Part shown: in pieces, positions 7,960 to 29,052 of the stretch
How the letters are laid out: every line of letters starts with the position of its first letter
Numbering within the stretch: position 1 is the first letter of the stretch
Origin: Acinetobacter baumannii
GTDB taxonomy: Bacteria > Pseudomonadota > Gammaproteobacteria > Pseudomonadales > Moraxellaceae
NCBI RefSeq assembly: GCF_016508585.1
Contig: NZ_JADVOP010000003.1
Location: forward strand, 1 to 64,000
Reading direction: 5' to 3'
Length of the DNA stretch: 64,000 nucleotides
Position numbers and translations under genes: made by a program
The notes under the pieces: generated by a model
Databases searched by the model: none
Told to the model about the DNA's origin: nothing
What the model saw: only the letters and a program-made list of their open reading frames with translations

Positions 7960-8186
7960 CTAGCAATATTACCGATGACTTACCCCTCCTGCTAGCCAAT
8001 ATGAATAGTCACCTATCCAACGCGGAGTGATAAATCAAAGGTCTTGCCAACAAAAGATAGCTGAGTACACGCCTTCAGCTAAATTGGTTCTTTGCTATGA
8101 TGACCATACTCTGTTGAGTAATTATGTTGATCATCACCCGTTTATTATCTTTTGGATAAAAAACAGCGGCTACTCCCCAATGAAGT
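7960..8186 (-). promoter_or_regulatory. yybP-ykoY manganese riboswitch leader
   Basis: Reading the minus strand, the leader begins within a few bases of the predicted transcription start with ATTGGGGAGTAGCC (8182-8169), the hallmark conserved loop of the yybP-ykoY riboswitch class. A long hairpin follows around 8080-8125. The leader ends in an 8-bp inverted repeat GGCTAGCA/TGCTAGCC (about 7958-7997) whose loop shows AGGAGGGG, just before the exporter start. The class senses Mn2+ and commonly controls UPF0016 or MntP exporters. The 5' boundary is well set by the motif and promoter; the 3' boundary is approximate. Confidence 0.85.
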
Positions 8187-8192
8187 ACAACT

Positions 8193-27376: not shown

Positions 27377-28195
27377 ATGATACCAAAGAGTAGCTATCCA
27401 AGTGATCAAAAAATTTTAAGAGTTGTCTCAATTAACGTAAATGGCTTACGTTCATCCGTCACCAAAGGCTTACTCGAATGGATGGAAAAGTCAGATGCCG
27501 ACGTGATCTGTATCCAAGAAAGCCGTATCACACATGAGCAATGGACAGACAAGTTTAAACCAGAAGGTTGGTTTACCCATCTTTTCCCTGCGCAAAAATC
27601 AGGTTATGCAGGTACAGCGATCTATAGTCGATTGCCTTTTAAATCGATCAGCGATGGTCTTGGCTTTGAACTTGCAGACAGTCAAGGGCGCTTTATTCAA
27701 GCGGAATTTGATCTTGGCTTAGATAAACCGGTACAAATTTGCTCATTGTATCTGCCTTCTGGCTCATCTGGTGATGAGGCTCAGGCACGTAAAGATCATT
27801 TCTTAGAAGAATATGCAAAAATTTTAAAAAAATGGCGGGATGAAGACAGATCAATCATTGTCTGTGGTGATTACAATATTGTACATAAACGTATCGACAT
27901 TAAAAACTGGTCGGGTAATCAAAAATCGTCCGGTTGCTTACCTCATGAGCGTGCTTGGCTTGACCATATTTATGATGATTTAGGTTATGTCGATACCTTC
28001 CGTGAGGTCCGCAAAGAAGCTGAACTATATTCATGGTGGTCCAATCGTGGACAAGCGCGAGCAAAAAATGTGGGGTGGCGGATCGATTACCATGCCTGCT
28101 CGCCTGACTGGAAAGACCGTACCGTCAACGCCTGGGTCTATAAAGACGAATGGTATAGCGACCATGCTCCCGTGGTGATTGACTACAAAATTTAA
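27377..28195 (+). CDS. crc: Crc-like catabolite repression protein, exonuclease III family
   Basis: The 272-residue protein belongs to the endonuclease/exonuclease/phosphatase fold. Its place beside pyrE and its length match Crc, the carbon catabolite repression factor that acts with Hfq in Pseudomonas and is known in A. baylyi. The catalytic residues of exonuclease III are all visible: Asn in VSINVNGLR, Glu in CIQESR, Tyr in CSLYLPSG, Asp and Asn in GDYNIVH, and His in SDHAPVVIDY. In P. aeruginosa Crc several of these are substituted. A true nuclease role (xthA-like) is therefore also possible. Confidence 0.85.
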   Translation: MIPKSSYPSDQKILRVVSINVNGLRSSVTKGLLEWMEKSDADVICIQESRITHEQWTDKFKPEGWFTHLFPAQKSGYAGTAIYSRLPFKSISDGLGFELADSQGRFIQAEFDLGLDKPVQICSLYLPSGSSGDEAQARKDHFLEEYAKILKKWRDEDRSIIVCGDYNIVHKRIDIKNWSGNQKSSGCLPHERAWLDHIYDDLGYVDTFREVRKEAELYSWWSNRGQARAKNVGWRIDYHACSPDWKDRTVNAWVYKDEWYSDHAPVVIDYKI

Positions 28196-28233: not shown

Positions 28234-28251
28234 AGTGTACATTTGTACACT
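28234..28251. promoter_or_regulatory. 18-bp perfect palindrome, candidate operator or activator site
   Basis: AGTGTACATTTGTACACT is a perfect 18-base inverted repeat about 87 bases upstream of the inferred start of the small RNA. Its length and TGT...ACA ends resemble GacA/UvrY-type upstream elements, but the sequence is not the Pseudomonas consensus (TGTAAG-N6-CTTACA). It is also just after the crc stop. Confidence 0.5.
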
Positions 28252-28329
28252 GAATATGTGGTAAAAACCTACAAAATTTGTCGTGTTATCGTATATTTTC
28301 TTCACCTCAATAAGCGCATTATAGCTTCC

Positions 28330-28488
28330 ACGGCACAGGGACATTGTCAGGATGACAGCAAAGGGATAGGACGCCGTAGGACGAAAAGAAATAAATATGT
28401 TGAGTATTTATTTTGCAAGGATGTGACATTGGACGTTGTAATGAGACCCGCATAATCAGGATGATTAGATGCGGGTTTTCTCTTTTTT
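28330..28488 (+). ncRNA. Candidate CsrA/RsmA-sequestering small RNA (RsmX/Y/Z or CsrB type)
   Basis: No convincing coding frame lies here. Eight GGA triplets occur in about 150 bases: 28339, 28350, 28364, 28369, 28379, 28419, 28431 and 28459. Two are presented as AGGAT loops on perfect stems: TGTC-AGGAT-GACA (28345-28357) and AATC-AGGAT-GATT (28454-28466). The second caps a terminator stem CCCGCAT/ATGCGGG followed by a T-rich tract (28476-28488). GGA in hairpin loops is the defining feature of CsrA/RsmA-titrating RNAs. A -10-like CATTAT at 28317 with no good -35 suggests activator dependence. The 5' end is approximate. Confidence 0.6.
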
Positions 28489-28695: not shown

Positions 28696-29052
28696 ATGTT
28701 GAAAATTTATGGCATTAAAAATTGCAACTCAATGAAAAAGGCGTTTGATCTGCTTACAGCACTCGGATTGAACTATGAGTTTCATGACTATAAGAAACAG
28801 GGTATCGACAAAGATACAGTGCAGTTATGGCTGGATCACTTAGGAAAAGATGTCGTTCTCAATAAAAAGGGGACAACATGGAAAAAACTCAGTGAACAGG
28901 AACAACAGCTTGCCTTATCCAGTGATGAAAACTTAATTGACGCACTCACTACTCATACCAGTTTGATTAAACGCCCTGTGATTGATCAGAATGGTCAATA
29001 TGTGGTGGGTTATGATGAAGATCAAATCAAAGCCTTAAAAACCGATGCATGA
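28696..29052 (+). CDS. ArsC/Spx-family reductase, YffB type
   Basis: The 118-residue protein has the thioredoxin-like ArsC/Spx fold with the N-terminal KIYGIKNCNSMKKAFDLL, where a single catalytic-type cysteine is followed by Ser (CNS), as in YffB. LNKKGTTWKKL near residue 54 and the C-terminal IKRPVIDQNGQYVVGYDEDQI are family features. Members may use glutathione; the substrate of YffB is unsettled. It is not Spx of Firmicutes, which interacts with RNA polymerase alpha. It is a single-gene unit with its own terminator. Confidence 0.85.
   Translation: MLKIYGIKNCNSMKKAFDLLTALGLNYEFHDYKKQGIDKDTVQLWLDHLGKDVVLNKKGTTWKKLSEQEQQLALSSDENLIDALTTHTSLIKRPVIDQNGQYVVGYDEDQIKALKTDA

Follow-up and report, generated by a model that had tools for sequence, protein, structure and literature searches.

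A crc-linked small RNA of Acinetobacter with conserved GGA triplets as a probable CsrA-titrating RNA

A gap of about 500 bases separates crc from an arsC/Spx-like gene in the window, the 64,000-nucleotide stretch of Acinetobacter baumannii DNA analyzed here, and a small RNA gene lies inside this gap. Judged from its sequence and from that of its relatives, this crc-linked RNA is very probably a genus-wide CsrA-titrating small RNA. This was also the core claim of the preliminary description, and it is well supported by the conservation of the GGA triplets, by covarying stems, by the GacA-type boxes upstream of the RNA in relatives, and by the presence of csrA and gacA. The genome carries one CsrA gene, encoding the canonical N-terminus and R44 to which the RNA-binding roles of CsrA are assigned, as well as a GacA orthologue that scores 269 bits (next best, 79) and narrowly misses the curated cut-off of 280. 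The kind of RNA is itself known; what is new is an unnamed member of that kind and a possible fatty-acid input into Csr. The features of the locus are collected in Table 1.

Table 1. Features of the crc-arsC locus, in window coordinates
Feature	Position	Strand	Remarks
crc, exonuclease III-like	27377-28195	+	TIGR00633; upstream neighbor
Palindrome AGTGTACA-TT-TGTACACT	28234-28251		Putative FabR/DesT-type operator; fixed spacing in 129/131 loci
GacA-type box place, window letters ATGTGGTAAAAACCTACA	28256-28273	+	Placed by comparison with relatives
TGTCG	28279-28283	+	Conserved; often TGACG in relatives
-10-like element CATTAT	28317-28322	+	From column conservation
Small RNA, eight GGA	28329-28486	+	About 158 nt; core and R1/R2 matches at 28329-28478; 3' end from the terminator fold
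Hairpin UGUC-AGGAU-GACA	28345-28357	+	GGA in loop; within outer stem 28330-28334/28373-28377
Middle hairpin, A/U-rich	28388-28414	+	No GGA; from fold and alignment; sequence and length vary
Two-GGA stretch with CAAGGAUG and UUGGACG	28415-28434	+	Weak predicted pairing; GGA at 28419 and 28431 each kept in 129/130
Intrinsic terminator, loop AGGAU, then interrupted T run	28443-28488	+	-18 kcal/mol, z = -4.6
arsC/Spx-like gene	28696-29052	+	PF03960; downstream neighbor

GGA triplets and structure of the RNA

A count on the + strand gave the eight GGA triplets that had been reported for the RNA, spanning 28339 to 28461 and starting at 28339, 28350, 28364, 28369, 28379, 28419, 28431, and 28459. At least eight GGA within 161 nt were found at this one place only on the + strand of the 64 kb and at two places on the - strand. 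How many should be expected depends on the null. The earlier figure was about two; 1.3 are expected from intergenic composition, 4.2 from the RNA's own composition, and 5.1 from dinucleotide shuffles of the RNA, 277 of 5,000 of which reached eight or more. The bare number of GGA is therefore weak evidence, marginal against dinucleotide shuffles, and the case rests on conservation.

Conservation was assessed by searching 149 genus genomes at the DNA level, which yielded the stretch in 140; 132 of these 140 loci were aligned, and 130 of the sequences were distinct. Every GGA was retained in 129 or 130 of the 130 distinct orthologues, so the lack of conservation of the GGA loops, which the preliminary description had named as evidence against its reading, was not observed. 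The mean identity was 0.999 in the 24 GGA columns and 0.805 in the other 126 columns, falling to 0.704 in the 75 non-GGA columns outside stems (the stems being placed approximately). None of 20,000 random sets of eight triplets was equally conserved.

Both AGGAT loops described earlier are present, TGTC-AGGAT-GACA at 28345-28357 and AATC-AGGAT-GATT at 28454-28466, the latter capping the terminator. Two of the eight GGA are thus in stable hairpin loops (the loop at 28349-28353 and the terminator loop), and the other six are not. None of 200 shuffles folded as well as the terminator. The z-scores of the folding energy were -1.0 for the first hairpin region (reached by 39 of 200 shuffles), -1.5 for the middle hairpin (15 of 200), and -2.1 for the whole RNA (7 of 200). 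By predicted energy alone, only the terminator stands out; the first AGGAU hairpin is backed by covariation, not by energy. A simple consensus scan detected neither a terminator nor, upstream of the RNA, a + strand promoter.

Changes on both sides were seen at three of the four inner pairs of the AGGAU hairpin and at one of the five outer-stem pairs, and in the terminator stem at two of the seven lower pairs and none of the three upper pairs. In the cross-genus alignment, the inner hairpin reads GUC-AGGAU-GAC in some sequences and GGCA-UGGAU-UGCC in others, with the loop GGA retained. Among 24 sequences across genera, 98.5% of the cells in the outer stem, the AGGAU hairpin, and the terminator were paired. 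The covariation score was 0.245 against a shuffled mean of 0.092, a value reached by none of 500 shuffles, and controls with the stems slid along the alignment gave at most 0.039. Six pairs changed on both sides, a count reached by 35 of 500 shuffles, and the number of pair types was reached by 334 of 500; shuffles attain these two counts because few pairs vary.

Very improbable is the alternative that this is an Hfq-type base-pairing small RNA whose GGA stretches are mRNA-pairing seeds and not CsrA sites. Although strongly conserved, unpaired GGA stretches would also suit pairing, GGA is itself Shine-Dalgarno-like and not complementary to a Shine-Dalgarno sequence; the flanks vary while the GGA are kept, two of the GGA are in hairpin loops, and relatives carry GacA-type boxes upstream. 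A. baumannii does have active Hfq RNA networks (PMC12802169), but the main text of that paper contains none of the words art2, ABUWs002, and sRNA2, although the RNA could appear there under another name. The notion of a small coding gene (a 70-aa TTG frame is listed as open at 28243-28455) or a passive crc 3' end instead of an RNA gene can practically be dismissed, since the lengths of the 132 aligned loci are spread evenly modulo 3 (46/44/42), as fits the earlier statement that no coding frame with a ribosome site is present, the stems covary, and conserved promoter-like elements stand between crc and the RNA.

Distribution and known relatives

The covariance search across Acinetobacter proposed in the preliminary description was carried out with model R1, built on 64 genus sequences (alignment A1, thinned from 109 distinct sequences). 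R1 matched 167 of 175 Acinetobacter genomes at an E value of ≤1, with the weakest best match at 9.1e-7. Of 149 genomes sampled from the family, 55 matched R1 and 94 did not. Nine of the 55, which belong to three other genera, matched at an E value of <1e-14, some with two to four copies. The window's own genome gave a single match in the model search, and no second copy of the RNA was found in the 64-kb window or at 64001-156564 of the same contig. Of the 132 aligned Acinetobacter loci, 131 have crc no more than 600 bp upstream of the RNA, and all have the arsC-like gene downstream. In the best 80 of 101 Crc matches on named contigs, the relatives were Acinetobacter species, the nearest at 94 to 95% identity being A. 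rongchengensis, A. piscicola, and A. guillouiae; that search may have excluded the genome from which the window comes. Elsewhere in the window, the sole Rfam match at cut-off was a yybP-ykoY manganese riboswitch on the - strand at 8033-8190.

R1 was unmatched in 8 of the 175 genus genomes. Seven of these (G014, G031, G097, G131, G143, G144, and G176) have crc with no RNA downstream: the 420 bases downstream of crc hold at most four GGA on the + strand, and model R2 with its filters off gave no match there. The RNA is therefore not indispensable in the genus. Genomes that have lost it would control CsrA in some other way or use a different RNA. The eighth genome, G030 (65% complete), had no crc match and gave a weak R2 match of 24.5 bits with TGTAAGCAATATCATACA upstream. 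Genomes G032 and G076 carry divergent copies of the RNA away from crc.

In an order-wide search, R2 matched 4 of 194 genomes, the window's own included. One match, L259 from another family, resembles such an RNA: it scores 22.7 bits and has TGTAAGCCATGGCTTACA about 170 bases before a sub-threshold RsmZ match (29.1 bits; E value, 0.0023). L258 does not resemble such an RNA, and L260 was scanned against Rfam. The weak R2 matches L270 and L271 were unconvincing by eye, and unfiltered R2 found nothing above 13.9 bits at nine crc loci of divergent genomes.

Several genomes show other arrangements. In related genera, two to four copies of the RNA occur (L236 to L239 in G194; L243 in G198). Every copy has a separate GacA-type box, which in one case is a near match. 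In genus g18 (L247 and L248), two adjoining model matches share a single upstream GacA-type box, as would fit an RNA of about twice the length. Besides the crc-linked copy, genome G118 carries another, different GGA-bearing RNA about 65 kb away (L273 1440-1660/L378 19234-19453; G118:C1:679293). This second RNA has CTTACA upstream and an AGGAU-looped terminator, and a stretch of 73% similarity precedes it by 2 kb.

The Rfam CsrB/RsmX/Y/Z models, which had also been proposed for the search, did not recover the RNA at cut-off; loose scans gave sub-threshold rsmX and RsmY matches only, and the best at the loose threshold was rsmX with 16.2 bits against a cut-off of 56. As no Rfam 15 model matched at its cut-off, the RNA is not filed under RsmX/Y/Z or CsrB/C. 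Rsm RNAs have many GGA in loops and linkers. The Pseudomonas RsmX, RsmY, and RsmZ RNAs (RF02144, RF00195, and RF00166; model lengths, 114, 121, and 133) are similar to the crc-linked RNA in length, in having a terminator, in the GacA-type box upstream (complete in the relatives of the Acinetobacter RNA), and in a host with CsrA and GacA. However, the crc-linked RNA differs from them in its linkage to crc, in the half GacA box of typical Acinetobacter loci, and in the adjoining FabR-type palindrome.

The preliminary description took such an RNA to be undescribed in Acinetobacter, which is only partly right. Predictions are in print: CsrA-regulating RNAs were predicted in strain ADP1, and two more were added, at ACIAD0018/0019 and ACIAD2750/2751 (PMC5568370). 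They share the genus and the proposed function with the crc-linked RNA. RsmX, RsmY, and RsmZ are listed for A. baumannii with citation of Kulkarni 2006 and another paper (PMC7366521, Table 1), and a CsrB-like RNA is mentioned with citation of Kulkarni 2006 (PMC12442408). The Kulkarni 2006 prediction is likely the crc-linked RNA. Among the literature matches listed, we recognized no experimentally shown CsrA-antagonist RNA in Acinetobacter.

By position, Art2 (ABUWs002) of A. baumannii AB5075 may also be the same RNA. It appears in a transcript listing at 154776-154945 on the minus strand, with a length of 170 nt (PMC5320573), compared with 146 to 150 nt for the modeled part of the crc-linked RNA. 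Strand and place agree with those in some one-contig genomes, where the RNA is on the minus strand at about 140 to 152 kb (G047, at 151004-151149, G061, G082, G135, and G171). In other one-contig genomes it is elsewhere (3.21 Mb in G007, 1.82 Mb in G008, and 3.81 Mb in G017). Because the position differs among genomes, this match by position is suggestive only.

Upstream elements

The 5' end of the RNA would lie near 28329, as placed from the -10 element and the edge of conservation. There is no good -35 element before the start, which would fit an activated promoter. The GacA box consensus is TGTAAG-N6-CTTACA (18 bp). In divergent relatives, 16 of 17 RNA places have TGTA-N10-TACA at -73 or -72 relative to the RNA start, and the seventeenth (L239) has a near match, TGTACGTTATTTCTTACG. 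The loci that hold these 17 places, L233 to L248, represent four genera other than Acinetobacter and a divergent member of Acinetobacter itself; the count, from 20 loci fetched, leaves out the weak L249 to L252 and the second adjoining matches in L247 and L248. No complete TGTA-N10-TACA box was found in the 132 typical Acinetobacter loci. In the window the right half, CCTACA at 28268-28273, is kept and the left half is degenerate. A right half of the form C[CTG][TAC]ACA, a pattern picked after viewing the sequences, stands near the box place in 122 of the 132 typical loci, and the columns of the left half do not exceed 0.35 bit.

The sequence just upstream of this box place had been described as a perfect 18-bp palindrome and linked to GacA. 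Neither part of that description held: only 16 of the 18 positions are self-complementary, and the palindrome fits a FabR/DesT-type operator, while the place of the GacA-type box is just downstream and half kept. The genus consensus of the palindrome is AGTGAACA-NN-TGTTCACT, at -95 or -96 from base 28330 in 129 of 131 loci (one of the 132 has no anchor). Its fixed place genus-wide indicates that it is not due to chance. With the most favorable of four offsets, 72 of 132 palindromes show full symmetry over the eight positions, and seven of these positions include cases in which both arms have changed alike.

The pattern AGTGWACANNTGTWCACT has two exact places in the window's own genome and five more at two mismatches, whereas its backwards control has three places at two or fewer mismatches. 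The second exact place is intergenic, with a TetR gene on one side and a ferredoxin reductase/desaturase operon on the other (L137); there, an exact site and a one-mismatch site stand 37 bp apart at 1464-1518, and similar sites occur in L193 to L197. The TetR protein beside this site matches FabR (NF008402) with an E value of 3e-41 at about 141 to 142 bits, below the cut-off of 151, and a second FabR-family gene in the genome is stronger, at 182 bits against the same cut-off. The E. coli FabR motif is AGCGTACACGTGTTCGCT (PMC4273635). Compared with this motif, the genus pattern has other letters at position 3 and the mirrored position only, and the window's own sequence deviates at 3 of 16 positions. 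From its likeness to the FabR motif and from the site beside fabR-like and desaturase genes, we read the palindrome as a putative FabR/DesT-type operator. It has the same 8+2+8 layout as FabR/DesT operators. However, its center is about 87 bp upstream of the inferred RNA start and does not overlap the promoter, as an operator would be expected to do; this distance is unusual for a repressor. From the center of the palindrome to that of the GacA-type box is 22 bp, or two helical turns.

When up to one mismatch was allowed, the pattern AGTGNACANNTGTNCACT had at least 158 places in 59 genomes of the genus, 0 to 7 per genome, compared with 24 for the backwards control. Among 20 hand-picked places away from the RNA, 9 were beside a hybrid kinase gene, 5 between the fabR-like and reductase genes, 5 near nadE, and 1 elsewhere; the proteins of L181 and L183 were scanned, and the other neighbors were judged by sequence. 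The hybrid kinase is MxtR-like, and seven of the nine kinase-side sites have an ErdR-like regulator gene near. The kinase-side FabR/DesT-type sites (L181, L182, L184, L187 to L191, and L200) stand between the kinase gene and a gene for a protein of 255 to 266 aa, which in L181 had no Pfam or NCBIfam match. On the nadE side (L183, L185, L186, and L198), the FabR/DesT-type sites are near tandem frames of about 35 codons, found by eye in a gap of about 1.1 kb, that look like small membrane proteins. The sites were also considered as markers of further GGA-rich RNAs, and no comparable GGA cluster was found in the five of nine kinase-side loci and four of five nadE-side loci covered.

It is unlikely that the palindrome is instead this lineage's GacA box with drifted half-sites. 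Its length of 18 bp would be right, its spacing from the start is fixed, Acinetobacter has a GacA orthologue, and the usual box lacks its left half in typical loci; however, the half-site TTCACT is unlike CTTACA, the place of the relatives' box is adjacent and retains CTTACA-like letters, and the palindrome, which is similar to the E. coli FabR motif, is found again between a fabR-like gene and desaturase genes. Still more doubtful is a relaxed CRP/Vfr site, GTGA-N8-TCAC. The inner AC/GT letters, which CRP is not known to need, are the best kept in both arms (131 and 128 of 132), and the window's arms read GTGTACA, with no GTGA, although genus g23 does hold TGTGA-N6-TCAC, a standard CRP spacing, at the same place (L233 to L235 and L240). 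CRP also affects CsrB and CsrC in Yersinia pseudotuberculosis (PMC3523269). The FabR/DesT-type operator remains our preferred reading of the palindrome.

Proposed mechanism and significance

Transcription would run from about 28329 to the terminator at about 28486. The RNA would display up to eight GGA, two in closed AGGAU loops and the rest between or beside stems. Several CsrA dimers would then be bound at pairs of GGA, and CsrA-repressed mRNAs would be freed. Comparison with relatives suggests that transcription is most likely GacA dependent through 28256-28273, a box that is complete in relatives and half kept here. In the least certain step, a regulator of the FabR/DesT family probably binds the palindrome and would tune expression to the acyl-chain state.

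As a tentative extension, possible rather than probable, an acyl-chain-sensing FabR/DesT-type regulator may have been inserted into Csr control. Its operator would have taken a fixed position at a distance of two helical turns from a GacA box whose left half was lost. The membrane fatty-acid state would then determine how much CsrA decoy is present and, through it, carbon use and stress tolerance under CsrA control.

On rich media, A. baumannii reportedly cannot do without csrA (PMC12802169), although a csrA deletion of strain ATCC 19606 is also described (PMC8567240). In A. baylyi, strain ADP1 has an insertion close to the end of csrA, whereas ADP1-ISx possesses the gene in full length (PMC11426457). 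As far as the papers cited here describe it, the connection between GacA and CsrA in the genus has so far been a prediction only. The crc-linked RNA provides one defined RNA and promoter place for testing this connection in nearly every species, perhaps in A. baumannii via Art2. If the FabR/DesT site is true, a fatty-acid input would be added to Csr.
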